Shown piece after piece: positions 2,785-24,442 of a DNA stretch of 44,438 bases. Position 1 is the stretch's first letter. Each line of letters opens with the position of its first letter. Source of the DNA: Pseudomonas sp. Ga0074129 (GTDB lineage Bacteria; Pseudomonadota; Gammaproteobacteria; Pseudomonadales; Pseudomonadaceae); NCBI GenBank assembly GCA_001465025.1, contig LNDO01000082.1:1-44438 (forward strand). The letters run 5' to 3'. The position numbers and the translations under genes were made by a program. The notes beneath the pieces are model-generated. The model was not told the origin of the DNA, searched no databases, and saw nothing but the letters and a program-made list of their open reading frames with translations.

Positions 2785-3726
2785 TTAACGGAACATCGCG
2801 CTGATCGATTCTTCATTGCTGATGCGGCGAACCGCTTCAGCGACTACCGGGGCGATATCCAGTTGGCGGATGCGCGAGCAAGACTGCGCGGCGGCTGACA
2901 ATGGGATGGTGTTGGTCACCACCAGTTCGTCCAGTACGGATTTTTCAATGTTCTCGATTGCACGGCCGGATAGAACCGGGTGTGTGCAATAGGCGAATAC
3001 TTTCGATGCGCCATGTTCTTTCAGGGCTTTTGCCGCATGGCACAGGGTGCCGGCGGTATCCACCATGTCATCGACCAAAATGCAGGTGCGGCCTTCTACA
3101 TCACCGATGATATGCATCACTTCGGAGTGGTTGGCTTTTTCGCGGCGCTTGTCGATGATCGCCAGGTCAACACCCAGGGATTTGGCCACGGCGCGTGCAC
3201 GCACTACGCCGCCAATGTCTGGGGAGACAATCATCAGGTTTTCAAAGCGCTGATCTTCGATGTCGTCCACCAATACAGGTGAGCCGTAGATGTTATCTAC
3301 CGGGATATCGAAGAAACCTTGAATCTGGTCAGCGTGCAGGTCGACAGTTAAAACCCGGTCGATGCCTACAACGGTGAGCATGTCAGCCACAACTTTGGCG
3401 CTGATTGCCACGCGAGCGGAACGCGGACGGCGATCCTGGCGGGCATAGCCAAAGTAGGGGATAACAGCAGTAATTCGGGTGGCTGATGAGCGGCGGAAGG
3501 CGTCTGCCATCACGACCAGTTCCATCAGGTTGTCATTGGTTGGCGCGCACGTCGGTTGAATCAGGAAGACGTCTTTACCGCGGACGTTTTCGTTGATTTC
3601 AATCATGATCTCGCCGTCGGAAAACTTACCGACAGAAGCATCACCGAGGGGAATGTGCAGCTGACGTACGATACGTCGCGCCAGATCGGGGTTAGCGTTC
3701 CCCGTAAAGACCATCATCTTGGACAC
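2785..3726 (-). CDS. prs: Ribose-phosphate pyrophosphokinase
   Basis: This enzyme makes PRPP from ribose 5-phosphate and ATP for nucleotide, NAD, His and Trp synthesis. The GTG at 3726 gives [15 protein letters not shown], the family N-terminus, and 313 residues, the standard length. The longer open frame to 3930 reads through both tRNA genes and is not coding. A regulatory-flexible-loop region follows KRR near 190. The PRPP-binding loop [11 protein letters not shown] is near 215-225. The gene lies directly downstream of the two tRNA-Gln genes, and its product supplies PRPP to upp and hpt, also in this window. Confidence 0.96.
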
Positions 3727-13598: not shown

Positions 13599-14126
13599 CT
13601 AGGCCGATTGACGGGTTCTCAGCGTCTGCTCGTATTGCGCTCGATAGAGTTTGGCAAAGCCATGCAGCACGGGCATCACCAGCGCCCAAATTACGGCGAG
13701 CAGCAGCAGGGTCTGCCAGGTGCCATAGGGCAGGCCGACGCCAGCAATCTGTGCACCCGCGTAATAGGAGAGCGGGGCTACAATCGCGCCAAGCAGGCTG
13801 CCACGCCACCAGGGTTGGGCTGTCCAGGCCATGCAGTGGTTTAGAGTGGTGGCCAGCAGCAGCCACAGGCTGGCCAGCCAGAGTGGGACCAGCACGCGTG
13901 GTTCACCGAAATCAAACACCCCCATGTTCAGTAAAAAACTGTCCAGGGCGCTGCCAACAATAAACACGCTGACCAGCAGTTTGCCTTCGGCCGCCCAACT
14001 GCTGGTCCACAGCAGGTGCACCAGTACGACGGCCAAGGCCACCAACAGCCACAGGCTGTCGCCACCAAACACGCTGGCGAACCAGCCAAGCTGAAACAGC
14101 AGGGTGTTGACGATCAACTTAGCCAT
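13599..14126 (-). CDS. DUF2878 integral membrane protein
   Basis: This 175-residue, strongly hydrophobic protein has about five membrane segments, with characteristic FQLGWFASVFGG near the start and GLPYGTWQTLLLL. It matches DUF2878, a family of unknown function often found beside Cfa-like methyltransferase, DUF1365 and flavin amine-oxidase genes. The start is the ATG at 14126, which overlaps the end of the Cfa-like gene by eight bases. It is the last gene of the nine-gene operon, so it probably acts in the same membrane-lipid process. No enzymatic motif is recognisable. Confidence 0.85.
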   Translation of the reverse strand: MAKLIVNTLLFQLGWFASVFGGDSLWLLVALAVVLVHLLWTSSWAAEGKLLVSVFIVGSALDSFLLNMGVFDFGEPRVLVPLWLASLWLLLATTLNHCMAWTAQPWWRGSLLGAIVAPLSYYAGAQIAGVGLPYGTWQTLLLLAVIWALVMPVLHGFAKLYRAQYEQTLRTRQSA

Positions 14127-15393
14127 CAAAGTTTCCTAGCAGAGGGGCAGGGCGCGCGGCGGGTTTGGCCAGCAGCAATTGCGCGGTGCCGATGGTGCGC
14201 TCGATAAAGCCGCCCTCGCAATAGCACAGGTAGAACTCCCACAGGCGGAAGAAGTAATCGTCGTAGCCCTGTTGCTCCAGCTTGTGCCGGGCATGGCGCA
14301 GGTTGTCGTGCCAGATGCGCAGCGTGCGCGCGTAGTGCAGGCCGAAGTCTTCCATGTGGTGCAGGTTCATGTCGGTCTTGGCAGTGATGATTTCCAGCAT
14401 TTTGTTTACCGACGGCAATGCGCCACCGGGGAAAATGTAGCGCTGGATAAAATCGACGGCGTTCTTCGCCTGCTCATAGCGCTGGTCACGAATGGTGATG
14501 GCCTGCAGCAACATCAGCCCGTCGGGCTTGAGCAGGTTGGCGCATTGCTGGAAGTAGGTGGGCAGGAAGCGATGGCCCACGGCTTCGATCATCTCGATGG
14601 ACACCAGCTTGTCGTACTGGCCGCGCAGGTCGCGGTAATCCTCCAGCAGCAGGGTGATTTGCCCTTCCAGCCCTTGCTGTTTGATGCGTCGTTCGGTGTA
14701 GGCGAACTGCTCGCGTGACAGCGTGGTGGTGGTGACTTTGCAGCCGTAGTGGGTGGCCGCGTAGATGGCCATGCTGCCCCAGCCGGTGCCGATTTCCAGC
14801 AGGTGATCACTGGGCTTGAGCGCGAGCTTCTGGCAGATGCGCTCAAGTTTATTCAACTGCGCCTGCTCAAGGCTGTCGTCAGCGCTTTTAAACATGGCCG
14901 CCGAGTACATCATGGTTGGGTCGAGGAACTGTTCAAACAGGTCATTGCCCAGGTCGTAGTGCGCCGAGATGTTCTTGCGCGAACCTTTGCGCGTGTTGCG
15001 ATTGAGCCAGTGCAGCCCTTGGACAAGCGGGCGACCGAGCTGCGCCAGGCCGCTTTCCATGGCGTCGAGTACATCCAGGTTGCTGACAAATACGCGAACC
15101 ACCGCCGTCAGGTCTGGCGATGTCCAGTAACCGTGGATATAGGCTTCACCCGAGCCAATCGAGCCATTACCCGCGACCAGGCCCCACACTGCACCATCCT
15201 GCACGTGGATTTCTGCGCACAGGTTGGAGTGAGGGTCGCCGAACTCCATGCGCTCGTCGCCTTCCACAATCACCAACTGGCCATGACGCAGCTGCTTGAG
15301 TTGGCGCATCACGGCGCGGCGCAACAGGCTGGCACCGATACCGCTGCCGGCACGCACAACATGTTTGGCGGAGGTCAGGCTAGAGCTTTTCAT
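14119..15393 (-). CDS. Cyclopropane-fatty-acid synthase-like SAM methyltransferase
   Basis: This 424-residue protein of the Cfa/MmaA type adds a methyl or methylene group from SAM to the double bond of a phospholipid-bound unsaturated acyl chain. The SAM loop LEIGTGWGSMAIYAA is near residues 200-215, with the family motifs SAHYDLGNDLFEQFLD and YIFPGGALPS. The start ATG at 15393 (MKSSSLTSAKHVV) was preferred; the frame runs to 15435. It overlaps DUF1365 upstream by 14 bases. With the DUF1365, amine-oxidase-like, SDR and DUF2878 neighbours it resembles clusters linked to singlet-oxygen response and unusual (for example furan) fatty acids. The exact product cannot be told from sequence. Confidence 0.88.
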   Translation of the reverse strand: MKSSSLTSAKHVVRAGSGIGASLLRRAVMRQLKQLRHGQLVIVEGDERMEFGDPHSNLCAEIHVQDGAVWGLVAGNGSIGSGEAYIHGYWTSPDLTAVVRVFVSNLDVLDAMESGLAQLGRPLVQGLHWLNRNTRKGSRKNISAHYDLGNDLFEQFLDPTMMYSAAMFKSADDSLEQAQLNKLERICQKLALKPSDHLLEIGTGWGSMAIYAATHYGCKVTTTTLSREQFAYTERRIKQQGLEGQITLLLEDYRDLRGQYDKLVSIEMIEAVGHRFLPTYFQQCANLLKPDGLMLLQAITIRDQRYEQAKNAVDFIQRYIFPGGALPSVNKMLEIITAKTDMNLHHMEDFGLHYARTLRIWHDNLRHARHKLEQQGYDDYFFRLWEFYLCYCEGGFIERTIGTAQLLLAKPAARPAPLLGNFDG

Positions 15394-16192
15394 GGGATAC
15401 ATCCTTTGATGCGGTGCGGGCAACGCGGAAATCACCTTCTGCGGCCCGATGAGTGAAAAGGGGAATGCGTTTGAGCAGCAGGCGCAGCGCTTGCCAGTAA
15501 ATGGCGGCGACGGTCTTGCCGGTCATCCAGGGGAACTGCAGCAGGTAGTGATGCAGGCTGCTGCGGTTGAGCGGTGTACGGTGCAGACTGAGGCTGGCAT
15601 CGAAGAGTTTTTCATCGGCTTGCCAGTCGGCCATGTGAATACCTAAGCGCTCGCCGGCTGGGCTGAAACTCATGCGGTATTCCAGCTCGCGCGGTAAAAA
15701 CGGCGAAACATGAAACGCCTTGGCCACGGCCACGTGCAGATGGCCATCGCCCTCGGCGGGCAGCACATAGTGGTAGCGCTCACGGAACGGCGTGTTGCTG
15801 ACTTCGCAAAGAATCGCCGCCAACCGCCCGTCCGCCTCGTGGCAGTAGAAGAAGCTGGCCGGATTAAAACTCAAGCCCCAGCTACGCGGTTGGGTCAGCA
15901 GGCAAATCGCGCCCAAAGGCGTGCGGCCAAGCGCTTGAGTCACGCGCTGCCGAACGGCATCGATCAGTGACATGCCAACCGTGGTGAACTGCGGCAGGTA
16001 GTCGGTTTCACGAAAGGCAAACGGCGCAAAGCGTCCACGGCCGGCCAGCGGCGACAGGGCCAGCACCGCGTCTTGCTCGCTCAGGTCGAGGTACAGCAAG
16101 CCCATGCGATAGCGGAAGTTGTGCTGGCGCGGCGCAAATCGCCGGTGCTGCACCCAGCCGCTGTACAAGGCGCTGTTGACGATCGTGCTCAT
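15380..16192 (-). CDS. DUF1365 family protein
   Basis: The protein has 270 residues and begins MSTIVNSALYSGWVQHRRF. It contains the family blocks HNFRYRMGLLYLDL, FNPASFFYCHEADGRL and EVSNTPFRERYHYVLP. The biochemical function is not established. The family nearly always sits between a flavin amine-oxidase-like gene and a Cfa-like methyltransferase, exactly as here, so a part in the same lipid modification is inferred. Its ATG shares one base with the upstream stop, and its 3' end overlaps the Cfa-like gene. Confidence 0.88.
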   Translation of the reverse strand: MSTIVNSALYSGWVQHRRFAPRQHNFRYRMGLLYLDLSEQDAVLALSPLAGRGRFAPFAFRETDYLPQFTTVGMSLIDAVRQRVTQALGRTPLGAICLLTQPRSWGLSFNPASFFYCHEADGRLAAILCEVSNTPFRERYHYVLPAEGDGHLHVAVAKAFHVSPFLPRELEYRMSFSPAGERLGIHMADWQADEKLFDASLSLHRTPLNRSSLHHYLLQFPWMTGKTVAAIYWQALRLLLKRIPLFTHRAAEGDFRVARTASKDVSHEKL

Positions 16193-17439
16193 TACAACGA
16201 CTCACCAAATTCACGGGCCACGCGCAATGCGCTGACCACGCCGTCTTCATGGAAGCCGCTGGCCCAGTAAGCACCGCAGAAGTAACTGTGGTTGGCGCCG
16301 AGCAGTTCTTGCCAGCGCGCTTGCGCCGCCATGCCGTCCAGGCTGTATTGCGGGTGAGCGTAGGTAAAGCGCGCGAGAATTTTGTTTGGGTCGATGGCGG
16401 CTGTCTGGTTCAGGCTGACGCAGAAGGTGCTGTCACTCTGGATGCCTTGCAGGATGTTCATGTCATAGGTGACGGCGGCGGGCTGATCCACAGGCCCGCC
16501 CAATCGGTAGTTCCAACTGGCCCAAGCCATCGGCCGTTTGGGCAGCAGGCGGGTATCGGTGTGCAGCACCACGTCGTTATCGGCATACGGCAGCGCGCCG
16601 AGGATGGATTGCTCGGTGTCGCTCGGCTGCGCCAGCAAGCCAAGTGCTTGATCGCTGTGGCAGGCAAACACCACCTTGTCGAAGCGCTCAATGCCAGCAT
16701 TGCTGTGCACGATCACGCCATCGGCGTCGCGCTCTACGCGTGTGACTGGGCAGTTGAGGCGGATCTTCTCGCGAAATGACTCGGTCAGGGGCGCGATGTA
16801 GCTGCTGGAGCCGCCTTCAATCACACACCACTGCGGCCGGTCGCTGACCGAGAGCAGGCCGTGATTCTTGAAAAAGCGCACGAAGAATTGCAGCGGAAAA
16901 CCAAGCATGTCCGCCAGTGACATCGACCAGATCGCCGCGCCCATAGGCACGATGTAATGCTGGATAAAACGCTCGCTGTACGCATTGGCCTTCAGGTAGT
17001 CACCGAGGGTCATGTCGGCGGCGATGCGCTGGTTGTTGAGGTCCAGCAGGGCTTCGCGGTTAAAGCGCAGGATGTCGCGCACCATGCCAATAAACTTGGG
17101 TGAAAACAGGTTGCGGCGCTGGGCAAACAAGGTGTTGAGGCTATGCCCGTTGTACTCCACGCCAGTCAGCGGATCGCTGACCGAAAAGCTCATTTCGGTG
17201 TCCTTGAACCCTACGCCCAACTGGCTAAGCAGGCGGATAAAGTTCGGGTAGGTCCAGTCGTTGAACACAATAAAGCCGGTGTCCACGGCGTACCGCTGCC
17301 CGTTCACCTCAACATCAACGGTGTGGGTATGACCGCCAATCCAGTCGCTGGCTTCAAACACCGTGATCTCGTGGCGGCGGTTGAGCAGGTAGGCGCTGGT
17401 GAGGCCGGCAATGCCGCTGCCGATAATGGCAATTTTCAT
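16192..17439 (-). CDS. FAD-dependent amine-oxidase-like oxidoreductase
   Basis: This 415-residue flavoprotein has an N-terminal FAD-binding Rossmann motif (IIGSGIAGLTSAYLL), then the GG-doublet segment IGGHTHTVDVEVNG and a DTGFIVFN block characteristic of the subgroup found beside DUF1365 and Cfa. It probably oxidises or desaturates a lipid substrate; it resembles the flavin desaturase role proposed for bacterial furan-fatty-acid synthesis, but this is inference. No signal peptide is seen. It ends at 16192, overlapping DUF1365 by one base, and follows the SDR gene after nine bases. A second, shorter flavoprotein of the same fold lies at 22355-23347. Confidence 0.87.
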   Translation of the reverse strand: MKIAIIGSGIAGLTSAYLLNRRHEITVFEASDWIGGHTHTVDVEVNGQRYAVDTGFIVFNDWTYPNFIRLLSQLGVGFKDTEMSFSVSDPLTGVEYNGHSLNTLFAQRRNLFSPKFIGMVRDILRFNREALLDLNNQRIAADMTLGDYLKANAYSERFIQHYIVPMGAAIWSMSLADMLGFPLQFFVRFFKNHGLLSVSDRPQWCVIEGGSSSYIAPLTESFREKIRLNCPVTRVERDADGVIVHSNAGIERFDKVVFACHSDQALGLLAQPSDTEQSILGALPYADNDVVLHTDTRLLPKRPMAWASWNYRLGGPVDQPAAVTYDMNILQGIQSDSTFCVSLNQTAAIDPNKILARFTYAHPQYSLDGMAAQARWQELLGANHSYFCGAYWASGFHEDGVVSALRVAREFGESL

Positions 17440-17448
17440 GGGCTGTCC

Positions 17449-18216
17449 TTAGGTCTTGGCTTCTGCGCGGGCCATGCGGGCGCCGATGGCCACCTGCATA
17501 CGCTTGGGAAGATGGCCGAGCAGTTTGAGAATGACAATAAATGGGCCAGGGAAGGCGATTTCAAAAGGTTGCTGATCCAGGCGCTGGGCTATGTAGCCAG
17601 CGGCCTTGTCCACCGGCCAGCGCATGGGCATGGGGAAATCATTTTTCTGCGTCAGCGGGGTGTCGACGAAACCAGGGCTGACCAAGGTGACGGCGATTTT
17701 TTCTGCCTTCAGATCGATGCGCAGTGCTTCAAACAGGTAACGCATGGCCGCCTTGGATGCGCCATAGGCTTCGGCGCGTGGCAGCGGCATAAAGGTTACT
17801 GAGCTGCTAACACCGACCAAGTGCGGACTGTTACCCAAACGCAGCAAGGGCAGGGCGGCCTCGATGCAGTAACTGGCAGAAAACAGATTGGCGCGCATTA
17901 CACGCTCGACCATGGCTGCTTCAAATGCGCTGACCTCAACATATTCACAAGTGCCTGCATTGAGAATGGCGCAGTCCAGCGCACCCCAGACTTGGGCAAT
18001 GTGCTCGCCAATAGCGCGGACTTGAGTGGCGTCACTGAGGTCGCCAGCGACTACCAGCACCTGCTGCGGATAGCGCTTGGCAAGCGCTTGCAGCGGTTCG
18101 ACGCTGCGTGCGCTGAGTGCCAGTCGATGACCTTGGGCGAGCAGTTGTTCGGCCAGTGCCGCGCCAATGCCGCTGCTGGCCCCTGTTAACCAAATACGCC
18201 GTGCGTTTGCGTTCAT
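17449..18216 (-). CDS. SDR family NAD(P)-dependent oxidoreductase
   Basis: This classical short-chain dehydrogenase has 255 residues. The cofactor motif TGASSGIG is at 15-22, NAG is near 91, a Ser lies in VSSSVTF, and the active-site YxxxK is in AYGASKAAM. A hydrophobic, basic C-terminus (FIVILKLLGHLPKRMQVAIGARM) suggests membrane association, fitting a lipid substrate. It overlaps the upstream NTF2-like gene as ATGA at 18213-18216. The substrate is unknown; a redox step in modifying the operon's lipid product is plausible. Confidence 0.88.
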   Translation of the reverse strand: MNANARRIWLTGASSGIGAALAEQLLAQGHRLALSARSVEPLQALAKRYPQQVLVVAGDLSDATQVRAIGEHIAQVWGALDCAILNAGTCEYVEVSAFEAAMVERVMRANLFSASYCIEAALPLLRLGNSPHLVGVSSSVTFMPLPRAEAYGASKAAMRYLFEALRIDLKAEKIAVTLVSPGFVDTPLTQKNDFPMPMRWPVDKAAGYIAQRLDQQPFEIAFPGPFIVILKLLGHLPKRMQVAIGARMARAEAKT

Positions 18217-18635
18217 GCCAACCTCCGTTTCAGCCAGCGTATTGCCGAGCCGAGTAAGGGCAGGTGCTCATAGAGCAGGCTGCCGGCGTCGAAATAGTCT
18301 CGGTGACGATAGACCTTATCCTGCCACAAGAGGTGCGAGCAGCCTTCAACCCGGATCAGTTGGCCGCCAGCCAAACGCGGATGGCGGTAACTCATGGTCC
18401 AGCGCAGGTAGCCTTCACCGTCGCGCACCTGATCAAAGCCATAGAAGTCGAAGCGCAGTTCGCTGACATTGGCGTACATCTCGCCGAAGTAACGCTGCAT
18501 ATTGCTTAGGCCACGCACCTCATGCAGCGGGTCGCAGAACAGGGCGTCGTCGCTGTAGAGCTTGCCGAGTAAATGCAGGTTGTCTTTGTTCAGCGCGGCA
18601 AAGTCGTGGGCGAACTGGCGCAGGTAATCGCTCAT
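18213..18635 (-). CDS. NTF2/SnoaL-like protein
   Basis: This 140-residue protein matches the cone-shaped NTF2-like fold: LRQFAHDFAALNKDNLHLLGKLYSDDALFCDPLHEVRG at the start, then strands such as YLRWTMSYRHPRLAGG and a G-C-S-H-L segment. Such proteins bind or isomerise small hydrophobic molecules, but many have no known substrate. It overlaps phr upstream (ATGA, 18632-18635) and the SDR downstream (ATGA), giving tight translational coupling. A specific role cannot be assigned. Confidence 0.85.
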   Translation of the reverse strand: MSDYLRQFAHDFAALNKDNLHLLGKLYSDDALFCDPLHEVRGLSNMQRYFGEMYANVSELRFDFYGFDQVRDGEGYLRWTMSYRHPRLAGGQLIRVEGCSHLLWQDKVYRHRDYFDAGSLLYEHLPLLGSAIRWLKRRLA

Positions 18636-20074
18636 AACACCTCCTCGCCGGCAAAGTGCGGCAGGTTTTTGAATGCGGCCAGGGCGCGCGCGCGGCTTTT
18701 GCTCAGGTCGACAATCGGCGCTGGGTAATCAGCAATGCCAAACAAACCGCCCATGGCCGCAGGATTGTGGATATTGCTTTTGTTCAGGCCAACCAATTCG
18801 GGTATCCAGTGGCGGATAAAGCGGCCATCCGGGTCGAATTTCTGCGACTGGCTGAGCGGGTTGAAAATGCGGAAATAGGGCGCTGAATCGGTGCCGGTGG
18901 ACGAACTCCACTGCCAGCCACCGTTGTTCGCCGCCAGATCGCCATCGATCAGATGACGCATAAAAAAGCGCTCGCCTTCGCGCCAATCGATCAGCAGATT
19001 CTTGGTCAAGAACATGGCCACAATCATGCGCAGGCGGTTGTGCATCCAGCCGGTTTCCAGCAACTGGCGCATGGCGGCATCGATGATGGGGAAGCCGGTG
19101 CGGCCTTCCTGCCAGGCTTTCAGTTCGCGCGGGGCGTCACGCCAAGCCACGGCTTCGGTTTCCGGGCGAAAGGCGCGGTGCATGGAAACGCGCGGGTAAC
19201 CCACCAGAATGTGTTTGTAGAACTCGCGCCAGAGCAGCTCGTTAATCCAAGTCACCACGCCACTGCTGCCGGTGTCGAACTCGCCCTGATTCACCTCCAG
19301 AGCAGCATGTAGGCACTGGCGCGGTGAGATCACGCCCGCTGCCAGGTAGGCCGAGAGCTGGCTGGTGCCGGGCTGTGCGGGGAAGTCTCGGGCGGTTTGG
19401 TAGAAATCAATTTGCTCATCGGCAAACGCAGTCAGGCGGCGCTGCGCCTCAAACTCACCCGCTGGCCAGAGGTCGCGCAGTGCTTGCGAGGGCGTGGCAA
19501 AACCGGCGATCTGGCTGGGGATGGCATCGCTGGTCACCTGCAGGGCCGCTTGAGGGTGGGGCGTGGCCACGCGCGCGGGCAGCTGAGTGTGCAGGCGCTG
19601 ATAGCAGACCTTGCGGAACTGGCTGTACACCTGAAAGTAGCTGCCAGATTTGGTCAGGACGCTGCCAGGGGTGAAGAACAGCTGATCCAAGTGGCTGCTA
19701 AAGCCAACATCCTGCGCTGCCAATGCTGCCGCCACCGCCTGATCACGACGGGTTTCGTGTACACCGTATTCCTGATTAACGTGTACCTGCGTGACGCGCA
19801 GGGTTTGGCACAGCTCGCCAATTACCGACGCGGCTTCGTGCCAATGATCGGCTTGGCGAACCAGCAGGGGGACATTGAGTTTGCCCAGTTCGACTGACAA
19901 CTCTTTAAGGTTGCGCAGCCAGAAATCAACTTTGCTGGGCGCGTCGTCGTGAATCATCCACTGCGCCGGGCTGAGCAGGTAGACCGCCACCGTAGGGCCG
20001 TTGGCCATGGCCGCCGCCAGTGCGGTGTTGTCTTGCACGCGCAGGTCGGTGCGCAACCACATTAATTGCAGCAT
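18632..20074 (-). CDS. phr: Deoxyribodipyrimidine photolyase
   Basis: This class I CPD photolyase has 480 residues and uses blue light and reduced FAD to split UV-induced pyrimidine dimers. The N-terminal antenna-binding domain begins LMWLRTDLRVQDNTAL. The C-terminal FAD domain has WINELLWREFYKHIL, TGWMHNRLRMIVAMFLTKNL and LIDGDLAANNGGWQW with the expected tryptophans. The start is an ATG at 20074, 11 bases after the MerR-type regulator. The 3' end overlaps the NTF2-like gene by four bases. Position third in an operon with a LitR-like regulator agrees with light-controlled phr genes in other pseudomonads. Confidence 0.96.
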   Translation of the reverse strand: MLQLMWLRTDLRVQDNTALAAAMANGPTVAVYLLSPAQWMIHDDAPSKVDFWLRNLKELSVELGKLNVPLLVRQADHWHEAASVIGELCQTLRVTQVHVNQEYGVHETRRDQAVAAALAAQDVGFSSHLDQLFFTPGSVLTKSGSYFQVYSQFRKVCYQRLHTQLPARVATPHPQAALQVTSDAIPSQIAGFATPSQALRDLWPAGEFEAQRRLTAFADEQIDFYQTARDFPAQPGTSQLSAYLAAGVISPRQCLHAALEVNQGEFDTGSSGVVTWINELLWREFYKHILVGYPRVSMHRAFRPETEAVAWRDAPRELKAWQEGRTGFPIIDAAMRQLLETGWMHNRLRMIVAMFLTKNLLIDWREGERFFMRHLIDGDLAANNGGWQWSSSTGTDSAPYFRIFNPLSQSQKFDPDGRFIRHWIPELVGLNKSNIHNPAAMGGLFGIADYPAPIVDLSKSRARALAAFKNLPHFAGEEVL

Positions 20075-20085
20075 GGGGAATCCTG

Positions 20086-21027
20086 TCAGCTGTGCAGCAA
20101 ATTAAGGTCGGTAAGGCTGTGCAGCGCGGCCAGCGGGTCGGCGGCCAGGCTTAGCTCGGCATTCTGCTGAGTGATGCCCTGCAGTTCATCCGCGTGGATT
20201 TGCACCACCTGGCCGACCAGCAGACATGGGCAGTCGTAACCGCCCAGCAGGCGTTGCAGGTGAGTGCCATTGAGCGCCTGGCTTGAATACAACAGCACTG
20301 CACGCGGCTGGATATGCTCAACCGCCAGAGCCAGTTCGGTGGGCGGTAGTGGCCAGTCAAACACATCAACGGCGCAGCCGGCGCTACTGGCCAACCAGGC
20401 GGTCAACCACAAGCCGGGGGCCATGGGCAGGTCGGAGACGTTGATCAACAGCAGCGGTGCGCCGTTGTACTGGCGGTTGTTGTGGTACAGGCGTGCGCCG
20501 AGTTTGCTGCGCAGCCAGGAGTAAAAAAACACCCGCTCGGCTTGTGCGCCGAACTGGTTTCGCCAGCGCAGTTCAAGGTCTTCGAGCAAGGGCATAAGCA
20601 ATTGCTGGCAGAGGGTATGCGGCGGGTAGAGTGCCAGCTCGCTGTTAAAGCAGTCGTCGAGGCGGCGCTCATTCAGGTTGCAGATAGCCTGTTGCAACAG
20701 CTGGCGCTTGCTTTCCCATTGCGAGCTGGCCTCAGCGGGTGCGGCTTGATTAGAACGCAATAAGCCTTTGACCTGGCTGACGGAAACACCACGGTTAAGC
20801 CAGGTGAGGATCGCCTGGATACGCGCTACGTGTTCATCCGAATACAGCCGATGCCCTTTGGGCGTGCGGTGCGGCACGATCAGCCCGTAACGGCGCTCCC
20901 ACGCACGCAGGGTAACGGCGTTGACGCCGGTAATACGCGCCACATCACGGATCGGCATAAAGCCTTGGGCAATGGCCGCTTGATAGTCATCGGCAGCTGC
21001 GCCGTCGATCATTGGTTCAAGACTCAT
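20086..21027 (-). CDS. MerR-type regulator with degenerate cobalamin-binding domain (class II LitR/PplR-like)
   Basis: The protein has 313 residues. The N-terminal MerR winged helix (residues ~24-92) reads PIRDVARITGVNAVTLRAWERRYGL. The C-terminal half has the CarH/LitR helical-bundle-plus-Rossmann layout, but the cobalamin motif DxHxxG is degenerate: D199-L-P201 replaces D-x-H. The Trp-x9-Glu-His bundle motif is also altered (W155, E164, R165). This fits the B12-independent LitR class described in P. putida, which controls light-induced genes with a separate LOV photoreceptor; no such sensor is in this window. It overlaps the upstream gene as ATGA and precedes phr. The TRTACA-N12-TGTAYA boxes at 22010, 22060 and 23395 are its likely sites. 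Confidence 0.85.
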   Translation of the reverse strand: MSLEPMIDGAAADDYQAAIAQGFMPIRDVARITGVNAVTLRAWERRYGLIVPHRTPKGHRLYSDEHVARIQAILTWLNRGVSVSQVKGLLRSNQAAPAEASSQWESKRQLLQQAICNLNERRLDDCFNSELALYPPHTLCQQLLMPLLEDLELRWRNQFGAQAERVFFYSWLRSKLGARLYHNNRQYNGAPLLLINVSDLPMAPGLWLTAWLASSAGCAVDVFDWPLPPTELALAVEHIQPRAVLLYSSQALNGTHLQRLLGGYDCPCLLVGQVVQIHADELQGITQQNAELSLAADPLAALHSLTDLNLLHS

Positions 21028-21989
21028 AGGGCATTACGCAGACTGAGGTTTTCCGGGTGCGGTTGCAGATAAACCTGCTGCGCAATGTACGTATCGGGGT
21101 GGCGGCGGAAGTGGTGCTTGAGCAGCGTCATGGGCACCACCAGTGGCACCACACCATGGCGGTACTGGCCGATCAGTTGCTGCATTTCCTGCTTCTCTTC
21201 GCTGCTCAGCGCTTGTTTAAGGTAGCCGCTGAGGTGTTGCAGCACATTGCTGTGGGTGCGGCGGGTAGCGCAGCTTTTCAGGGCGCTCATCAGTTCGCTG
21301 AAGTACCGCGTGGCTATTTCACCGAGGTCTTGCTGGCCGATGTTGCCGAGCATGCGCCCCAGTTGTTTGTACTGCACTGGGTTGGTGGCCATGAGCAGGT
21401 ATTTGTAGCGCGAGTGGAACTCAATCAAGCCTTTACGGCTGATGCCGTCACGCAGCAATTGTTGCCATTCGGAGTAGGCGAACACGCGGGTGATGAAGTT
21501 TTCACGCAGGATTGGGTCGTTCAGGCGGCCGTCTTCTTCCACCGGCAGGTTAGGGTGGCGCGCGCAGAATGCTTGGGCGAACAAACCGCGACCAGGCTCG
21601 CTGGGACGACCATTGTCCTGATAAACCTTGACCCGGTGCAGGCCGCAGGAGGGCGACTGCTGCATAAAGATGTAGCCACAAATGTCGGTGAGTTCGCCGG
21701 CCATTTGCTCGCCATAAGCCGTGAGCGGGGCGGTAACATCCATCTCACGGTTGACGGTGCCTACAGCGCGCGGAGCGTTCGGGTCGCCGACCAGGCGGAT
21801 GGGCTCACGCGGCACGCTCATGCCGATGCCGACTTCCGGGCAAACCGGTACGAAGTCAAAGTGCTCTGTCAGGGTGCGGCTGCACAGTCGCGACTCCTTA
21901 TGACCGCCGTTGTAGCGAACTTCGTTGCCCAGCAGGCAGGCACTGATGCCCAGTTTGGGTTTGGCGGTGGCAGGTAGGGATTGACTCAT
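21024..21989 (-). CDS. DUF523 plus DUF1722 protein (YbgA-like fusion)
   Basis: The protein has 321 residues from the ATG at 21989. Residues ~10-150 are DUF523 (KLGISACLLGNEVRYNGGHK, a VCPEVGIGMSVPREPIRLV block and SPSCG with conserved cysteines). Residues ~190-310 are DUF1722/YbgA (SRYKYLLMATNPVQYKQLG, RRTHSNVLQHLSGYLK). The function is unknown, but the family often neighbours photolyase and MerR/LitR genes. It is the first gene of the nine-gene run and is preceded by the clearest promoter in the region with two flanking boxes. The open frame to 22034 runs into the promoter and a box and was rejected. Confidence 0.9.
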   Translation of the reverse strand: MSQSLPATAKPKLGISACLLGNEVRYNGGHKESRLCSRTLTEHFDFVPVCPEVGIGMSVPREPIRLVGDPNAPRAVGTVNREMDVTAPLTAYGEQMAGELTDICGYIFMQQSPSCGLHRVKVYQDNGRPSEPGRGLFAQAFCARHPNLPVEEDGRLNDPILRENFITRVFAYSEWQQLLRDGISRKGLIEFHSRYKYLLMATNPVQYKQLGRMLGNIGQQDLGEIATRYFSELMSALKSCATRRTHSNVLQHLSGYLKQALSSEEKQEMQQLIGQYRHGVVPLVVPMTLLKHHFRRHPDTYIAQQVYLQPHPENLSLRNAL

Positions 21990-22009
21990 GGCGACCTCTG
22001 ATCTCGACT

Positions 22010-22033
22010 TGTACAGATTCAGATAAATGTACA
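22010..22033. promoter_or_regulatory. Regulator box A: TGTACA-N12-TGTACA, downstream of the -10
   Basis: Two perfect TGTACA half-sites at 22010-22015 and 22028-22033 are separated by 12 bases. The box lies between the predicted transcription start (~22037) and the ATG at 21989, where bound protein could repress. Its form equals the consensus I recall for class II LitR in P. putida. Confidence 0.72.
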
Positions 22034-22043
22034 ACTTGAGTTC

Positions 22044-22071
22044 ATAATAGGTCTGTAATTGTACAAGTCAA
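22044..22071 (-). promoter_or_regulatory. Sigma70-type promoter of the nine-gene operon
   Basis: On the minus strand, TTGACT (22071-22066) and TATTAT (22049-22044) are separated by 16 bases. The -35 lies inside the central 12 bases of box B. Transcription would run toward 21989. Confidence 0.65.
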
Positions 22072-22083
22072 TATATTTGTACA
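22060..22083. promoter_or_regulatory. Regulator box B: TGTACA-N12-TGTACA, over the -35
   Basis: Half-sites TGTACA lie at 22060-22065 and 22078-22083 with a 12-base gap, exactly 50 bases from box A. The box overlaps the -35 element, so occupancy should directly affect RNA polymerase binding. Confidence 0.72.
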
Positions 22084-22112
22084 ACTACTGTATGGCTTTG
22101 TGTGTGGTCGTG

Positions 22113-23443
<1,331 letters not shown>

Positions 23444-23536
23444 CTACAGTTAAGACAATCTGCCGCTGGCTGAAGCCACAAAGGCGCAAACAACGGTGTC
23501 GGGCGACGTATGTCGCGGTCTCATGAGGGCATTGTC

Positions 23537-24442
23537 ATGCACATTCTTATCACGGGCGGTACGGGTCTTATTGGTCGCGCGCTGTGTCAGCACTGGTTGC
23601 AGCAAGGCCATCAATTAACCGTTTGGAGCCGTCGCCCGCAGCAGGTGTCCAGCCTATGCGGGGCTGCAGTGCGTGGCATTGCACAGCTCGATGAATTGGC
23701 CGATGAGCCGCTCGATGCGGTTGTGAACCTGGCGGGTGCGCCGATTGCCGACCGCCCCTGGACGCGCAAACGCAAAGCCATGTTGTGGGCCAGCCGTATC
23801 GGCCTGACTGAGCAATTGTTGGCCTGGCTTGAAACCCGTGCACACAAACCCAGCGTGCTGCTCTCGGGTTCGGCGGTGGGCTGGTATGGCGATGCTGGCG
23901 AGCGTGAAATGAGTGAAGACTGCCCCCCGGTTAGCGAAGATTTTGCAGCGCAACTGTGCAGCGCCTGGGAAGAAACGGCCCAGCGGGCTGAATCATTTGG
24001 TGTGCGCGTAGTGTTGCTGCGTACGGGGCTGGTGCTGGCGCGCGAGGGCGGTTTTCTCAAGCGCCTGTTGTTGCCGTTCAAGCTGGGCTTGGGTGGCCCG
24101 CTGGGTAATGGCCGGCAGTGGATGCCTTGGATTCACCTGGCCGATCAAATAGCCCTGATTGATTTTCTCCTCACCCATGAGGCCGCCAGCGGCCCTTATA
24201 ATGCCAGCGCGCCCAACCCGGTGCGCAACCGCGAATTTGCCCAAAGCCTGGGCCGCGCGTTGCACCGCCCCGCGTTTATGCCAGCACCGGCGTTTGCTTT
24301 GCGCCTGGGCTTAGGCGAGCTTTCCGTGCTGTTGCTGGGTGGCCAGCGCGCTCTGCCCAAGCGCTTGCAGGCGCAAGGTTTCACATTTCGTTTCACTCAC
24401 TTGGATGCGGCCCTGGCAGACCTGCTAGGCCAACCGGATTAG
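23537..24442 (+). CDS. TIGR01777 family SDR/epimerase-like protein (YfcH-like)
   Basis: This atypical extended SDR has 301 residues from the ATG at 23537 ([20 protein letters not shown]). The NADP-binding GGTGLIG is at 6-12, [11 protein letters not shown] follows, then a YGD-containing active-site region ([15 protein letters not shown]). The C-terminal DUF1731 domain reads [24 protein letters not shown]. No substrate is known. It is eight bases upstream of hemH, so the two are probably cotranscribed. The divergent gap contains box C. Confidence 0.9.

Follow-up and report, generated by a model that had tools for sequence, protein, structure and literature searches.

Two LitR-type boxes at a putative light-inducible rudS-litR-phrB promoter of Pseudomonas sp. 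Ga0074129, and paired variable bases within the downstream box

Genes and promoter elements at the locus

The window, meaning the whole stretch of DNA that was analysed (44,438 nt; contig LNDO01000082.1 of assembly GCA_001465025.1, Pseudomonas sp. Ga0074129), carries a series of genes that runs from rudS to a DUF2878 gene, the last operon gene examined. All of them lie on the minus strand, and their ends overlap or nearly touch. The genes and the elements found in front of them are as follows.

23395..23418, no strand assigned: third, relaxed box TATACA-N12-TGTATA
22060..22083, minus strand: Site 1, TGTACA-N12-TGTACA, overlapping the -35 hexamer; about -46 to -23 if transcription starts at 22037
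22066..22071, minus strand: -35 hexamer TTGACT, from a search for sigma-70-like promoters
22044..22049, minus strand: -10 hexamer TATTAT, separated from the -35 by a 16-base spacer
22037, minus strand: putative transcription start, placed by analogy with P. mendocina at 48 bases upstream of the ATG
22010..22033, minus strand: Site 2, TGTACA-N12-TGTACA, in the rudS leader and 3' of the putative start
21024..21989, minus strand: rudS, TudS desulfidase fused to DUF1722 (PF04463 + PF08349; family search)
20086..21027, minus strand: class II LitR, MerR HTH + B12-binding_2 (family search)
18632..20074, minus strand: DNA photolyase, in the place of phrB (family search)
18213..18635, minus strand: SnoaL-like protein
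17449..18216, minus strand: short-chain dehydrogenase (family search)
16192..17439, minus strand: FAD-dependent amine oxidoreductase (family search)
15380..16192, minus strand: DUF1365 protein (family search)
14119..15399, minus strand: cyclopropane-synthase-like methyltransferase, in the place of ufaM and named by position; start codon uncertain
13599..14129, minus strand: DUF2878 protein; start codon uncertain

A preliminary description, made from the sequence alone, had spoken of a photolyase operon. The photolyase gene is indeed part of it, but the first gene has to be corrected to rudS, a tRNA 4-thiouridine desulfidase gene with the fusion of TudS (2-thiouracil desulfurase) to DUF1722 that marks RudS. 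The second gene had been called MerR/LitR-like, and its product can now be assigned to class II LitR, since it combines a MerR HTH with B12-binding_2 and gave no match to a B12-binding Rossmann family at E 0.001. Its near LitR relatives belong to Pseudomonas species that include P. peli, P. anguilliseptica and P. guineae, with 92-98% identity at seven of the nine loci.

The sole sigma-70-like promoter found in 21900-23600 was TTGACT-N16-TATTAT on the minus strand, with 0.4 expected in shuffles. The two boxes are spaced 50 bases apart and both hexamer pairs are exact, just as the preliminary description had it. Both fit the class II LitR consensus T(G/A)TACA-N12-TGTA(C/T)A, which the preliminary description had named for P. 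putida and which PMC9758184 gives in the same form. Site 1 overlies the -35, as expected of a class II LitR promoter, because TTGACT sits at 22071-22066. Site 2 sits between the -10 and the ATG. Its place relative to the start depends on the inferred start, and with a start near 22037 it would span about +5 to +28, which would agree with the earlier statement that this box lies just after the predicted start.

Related sites and genes elsewhere in the genome

The relaxed pattern TRTACA-N12-TGTAYA matched three times in the window and never in 100 dinucleotide shuffles. The genome scan for this pattern that the preliminary description had proposed was run on the whole assembly (4,017,355 bases, 4.02 Mb, in 124 contigs) and gave four sites, against one for the reversed control. 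Perfect TGTACA-N12-TGTACA occurs three times in the assembly, namely as Sites 1 and 2 and as a box at C110:36273-36296, which the likely ATG of a cryB-like photolyase gene follows after 29 bases. When one mismatch to the perfect pattern was allowed, there were 11 sites, against 5 for the control. Across 11 cryB-type loci (source genome included), such a box was present only in the source genome (L207) and in L208. The relaxed box at 23395 lies upstream of an FAD oxidoreductase gene (22355-23347, minus strand) with a DUF2389 gene behind it. In 8 of 64 loci tested, all from near relatives (L019-L025, L046), a like box stands upstream of Site 1 at a distance of 1332-1352 bases; most of the other loci were covered to about 1500 bases.

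The genome gave two matches to LitR with E below 1e-40. Of its two LOV-type matches with E below 1e-15, one reaches 7.9e-99. The second LitR (locus L009, contig 64) is 36% identical to the operon LitR, with 30 of 38 HTH residues identical from I26 to S63, and matched MerR families alone at E 0.001. It is flanked on one side by folM, folE and a FolB-family gene in the place of folX, and on the other side by a short LOV gene about 2.7 kb beyond its end. The predicted LOV protein (153 aa) has PAS-type Pfam matches only and the DCRFLQ motif, so that by sequence it has the makeup of a short LOV photoreceptor, i.e. a single LOV/PAS domain with the adduct cysteine motif and no effector domain; its best PDB sequence match is 7r5n, 'Sensory box protein'. 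A degenerate site, TGTACA-N12-GGTATA, lies 95 bases before folM. At least one such two-mismatch match arose at the locus in 44 of 200 shuffles, which is not unusual by chance. The site carries weight because its form and distance equal those of the folM site described for P. mendocina (PMC9758184), and not because it is rare.

Comparison with published systems and proposed regulation

Promoter P6650 of P. mendocina, as described in PMC9758184, has the same layout. Its Sites 1 and 2 are both TGTACA-N12-TGTACA, Site 1 lies over the -35 TTGACT, the spacer is 16 bases, Site 2 falls between the start and the ATG, and the start was measured 48 bases before the ATG. The class II LitR PmlR2, a paralogue encoded beside the LOV gene, was the regulator assayed on this promoter; it represses P6650 in the dark, and PmSB-LOV, when lit by blue light, binds PmlR2 and removes it from the DNA. 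The evidence comes from DNase I footprinting, SPR, gel filtration and run-off transcription, with repression and light release seen in vitro. One broad DNase I footprint was reported on the sense strand from +32 to -45, SPR binding to Site 2 was abolished when both TGTACA were replaced, and PmlR2 is hexamer-sized (all PMC9758184). The locus studied here shares with P6650 both site sequences, the -35, the spacer, the kinds of genes behind the promoter, the form of the folM site and the presence of a LitR paralogue close to a short LOV gene. It differs in its -10 (TATTAT as against TATGAT) and in the presence of the third box at 23395. Two longer reading frames separate the second litR from the LOV gene in the source genome, whereas one gene (PME15565) is named between them in P. 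mendocina.

In P. putida KT2440 the genes for PplR1, PhrB, UfaM, FolE and CryB are light-inducible, and the consensus, which the PplR1-3 regulon has in common with our locus, was defined for PplR1 (Sumi 2020, cited in PMC9758184). KT2440 encodes three paralogues of LitR along with two short LOV proteins, as compared to the two LitR and two LOV-type matches in the source genome. The RudS paper (PMC11417400) places PhrB, LitR and RudS in one light-controlled operon, and rudS, litR and phrB are likewise joined here.

It is very probable that the locus is a light-inducible rudS-litR-phrB promoter under the control of class II LitR repressors. LitR bound in the dark to Site 1, over the -35, and to Site 2, just 3' of the start, would exclude RNA polymerase. 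Blue light would bring the short LOV, encoded elsewhere, into its adduct state, in which it would bind LitR and cause it to leave the DNA. The operon would then be expressed, providing tRNA s4U removal, LitR, DNA photolyase and the products of the lipid-modifying genes. With litR in second place, the amount of repressor should increase along with operon expression, which would help the switch reset in the dark. Since the source genome has a class II LitR in the operon, another LitR close to both a short LOV gene and fol genes, and the degenerate folM site, we regard the locus as a new member of the known system. We infer that the same switching takes place in the source organism, with the operon LitR taking part. 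Autoregulation by the operon LitR is plausible, since PplR1 is the protein for which the P. putida consensus was defined. The system itself is published, and the new detail is the paired variable bases inside the rudS-type Site 2 that are treated below.

The idea of a light switch run by the LitR-like product thus survives in part. Repression via both boxes and release by blue light are what was found for PmlR2 of P. mendocina, but the published sensor is a short LOV (PMC9758184), and the likely light sensor is accordingly a LOV protein rather than LitR. That the operon LitR might itself sense light through B12, in the manner of class I LitR/CarH (PDB 5c8d, 3whp), is suggested by its MerR HTH and by the B12-binding_2 four-helix bundle, both of which match CarH. 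However, the match to CarH extends only as far as residue 180 of 313, no B12-binding Rossmann domain was detected at E 0.001, and PMC9758184 states that B12 is dispensable in P. putida. We rejected B12 sensing by the operon LitR on domain content and consider it most improbable. Class II LitR is called B12-dependent in PMC11417400, a statement which the predicted domain content and PMC9758184 do not support.

The preliminary description had also read the two-box geometry as a sign of cooperative binding or looping. Helical phase does not support looping, as the argument is weakened by a spacing of 50 bases (about 4.8 turns) and by the 25-28 bases found between the boxes in other promoters. The broad P6650 footprint and the hexamer-sized PmlR2 reported in PMC9758184 would be compatible with looping or cooperativity.

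Conservation across the genus

Of 199 genomes searched within the genus, 66 carry two perfect boxes 10-40 bases apart, as against none for the reversed control; the pair measures 73-75 bases end to end in 65 of them and 70 in one. A half-box with the -35 and then an ATG, a pattern blind to Site 2, was found in 259 of 398 genomes, a few of the listed rows being clearly other sequence. RudS is encoded downstream in 167 of the 188 promoter rows fetched. Among 154 distinct rudS-type promoters the distance from box to box is 26 bases in 116, 25 in 24, 27 in 13 and 28 in one, and both boxes are perfect in 90. Sampling was not uniform: 30 loci came from the two-perfect-box search, 30 from the half-box search (among the matches listed) and nine from LitR relatives, a further 120 regions were taken from the listed matches of the two-box and half-box searches, and some of the genomes are duplicate records. 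The locus adds one more Pseudomonas lineage to those in which this blue-light response has been described, and the survey shows that the operator pair is closely kept in the genus.

Individual loci deviate from this arrangement. In L018, which is a MAG labelled P. synxantha and the closest named relative by LitR (98%), the promoter region at about 2945-3018 reads TTTACT instead of TTGACT and carries one mismatch in Site 2, while its Site 2 N12 is identical to that of the window. L018 gave no promoter row because of the changed -35, and the changes may be error or decay. In L163 the hexamers of the rudS-type Site 2 are separated by 13 bases, one more than usual. In L196 (G014) rudS has shrunk to a short remnant, with the two-box promoter kept in front of litR.

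A second type of two-box promoter occurs in some genomes (L037, L038, L044, L050 and L270-L288 except L273). Where checked, it precedes and drives the SnoaL gene, so that the operon is split there. In at least nine genomes (G025, G072, G102, G124, G131, G173, G174, G178, G193) the SnoaL-type promoter lies beside a LOV match by coordinates. In G025, where the two-box promoter drives SnoaL, a single perfect box was noted by eye close before a rudS-like gene (L252, about 1500-1550). Also by eye, perfect boxes in L239, L246 and L260 (about 1500) adjoin a membrane sensor-like gene, with a receiver-like gene opposite in L246 and L260; the sensor-like gene is possibly a further regulon member.

With up to 19 candidates scored per genome, a short-LOV match at E <= 1e-50 was counted by hand in 58 of 65 two-box genomes. 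Under the same scoring none was found in G018, G028, G127, G149, G181, G190 and G195, two of which, G190 and G127, were fetched as the SnoaL-type promoters L037 and L038. Because of these 7 of 65 genomes LOV input may not hold for every two-box promoter.

Covarying bases within Site 2

Among 146 distinct rudS-type Site 2 sequences, the N12 has complementary bases at pair 1/12 in 67% and at pair 2/11 in 64%, as compared to 40% when shuffled (z 7.8 and 6.9), and at pair 3/10 in 40% against 25% (z 4.4). The paired letters differ by species, for example GA..TC, AG..CT and TC..GA. The inner pairs 4/9, 5/8 and 6/7 of the same 146 sites gave no clear excess (z 1.8, 1.5 and -2.1). Identical promoters were merged for these statistics, L163 was omitted because of its 13-base gap and L196, without a RudS match, entered the complementarity count only, so that the sets comprise 155 rows or 146 distinct sites for complementarity, 154 tips for the tree tests and 145 distinct sites for the folding and strand tests. 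Head-to-tail half-sites were considered as well, and four identity tests for a direct repeat gave no clear signal (z 2.7, 0.2, 2.2 and -2.0).

Relatedness between the promoters bears on how these figures are read. A tree simulation with random root letters reached the observed value in 192, 226 and 61 of 1000 runs for pairs 1-3 and did not reject chance. This null was judged too wide, and thinning and event counts were used instead, both chosen after the outcome of the simulation had been seen. When the RudS tree was thinned to 65 clusters, pairs 1 and 2 remained (mean z 5.4 and 4.6) and the third fell to 1.4; at 25 clusters only pair 1 was clear (z 3.2), pair 2 being at 1.4. Event counts gave 7.6 co-changes against 3.8 expected for pair 1 and 7.0 against 3.4 for pair 2. 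Changes from one complementary state to another amounted to 1.4 and 6.0, and losses and gains of pairing to 17.0/18.8 for pair 1 and 22.0/12.0 for pair 2, leaving a mixed picture for pair 1. In these event counts the unrelated pair (7,9) reached 4.0.

The covarying bases may well, though short of probably, belong to a longer dyad operator that is touched as DNA, directly or via DNA shape, by an inverted LitR dimer. The covariation is inverted, strand-neutral and strongest beside TGTACA, as such a dyad would have it. Of 74 distinct rudS-type Site 1 sequences, 81% have complementary bases at pair 1/12 but just 19% at pair 2/11, even though position 2 is free to vary; this site is weak as a test because its 3' half is fixed by the search pattern and the -35. 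SnoaL-type Site 1 has AG..CT in 8 of the 12 found, six of the eight being one identical sequence. The SnoaL-type Site 2 (24 distinct) speaks against the dyad reading, with an excess at pair 3 only (62% against 31%) and none at pair 1 (46% against 53%) or pair 2 (33% against 25%). In this set 18 rows came from the promoter pattern with the gene behind assumed, and G070, one of its 19 matches, was removed because it proved to be a rudS Site 1 in reverse orientation. The same lack of excess at pairs 1 and 2 counts against a purely mutational origin without function, in which template switching between the arms would have made them match. An inverted repeat could seed such switching, no positive evidence for it was obtained, and we place this origin on the unlikely side.

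Site 2 could also act as RNA, as a hairpin at the 5' end of the rudS mRNA in which the covarying bases extend the stem and which could protect the light-induced message from 5'-end decay or tune translation. This is compatible with the repressor model and would add to it. It would account for the complementary excess at all three pairs, of which the first two survive tree thinning, and Site 2 would begin near +5, in the leader. Single changes in the box arms were compared in the same 334 genomes by two patterns, which gave 194 and 186 matches, respectively; the arm affected was tallied by hand, and G022 and G097 were left untyped. Among the matches listed, the 3' change C5T, which leaves a G-U pair in the mRNA, occurs in at least eight genomes and its dyad equivalent, 5' G2A, in none. 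Against this, 5' A6G and 3' T1C are even at four and five genomes among the matches listed, and the RNA-compatible pattern alone was found in just 14 genomes as opposed to 6 with the incompatible pattern alone (sign test 0.12, relatedness ignored). The tree simulation described above tells against the hairpin too, and neither folding nor wobble pairs show a strand bias: compared with chimeras, the gain in folding is similar for sense (-9.62 vs -7.74) and antisense (-9.33 vs -7.42), and G-U and A-C cells are depleted about equally (0.73 and 0.79). The window's own Site 2 forms a 7-pair TTGTACA/TGTACAA stem to which its N12 adds nothing at the covarying pairs. On this evidence we consider the hairpin reading unlikely.

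The combined proposal, that Site 2 serves as a LitR operator in DNA and, once transcribed, as a covarying 5' hairpin that sets the stability of the light-induced mRNA, is quite unlikely and is put forward as speculation. If true, repression and message lifetime would be tied to the same 24 bases. Whichever reading applies, the paired variable bases are a testable lead that falls outside what the two-hexamer consensus describes. A hairpin or covariation at the rudS-type promoter goes unmentioned in the titles and abstract openings of the papers listed in literature searches, which does not establish its absence from print, and a word search of PMC9758184 returned none of palindrom, hairpin, stem-loop or inverted.

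The outer flanks of Site 2 gave mixed values, with z 4.6 at -4/+4, -2.0 at -1/+1 and -3.4 at -3/+3. In L139 (G042) a double change in the arms, TGTACG..CGTACA, keeps the pairing and was missed by both arm-change patterns.
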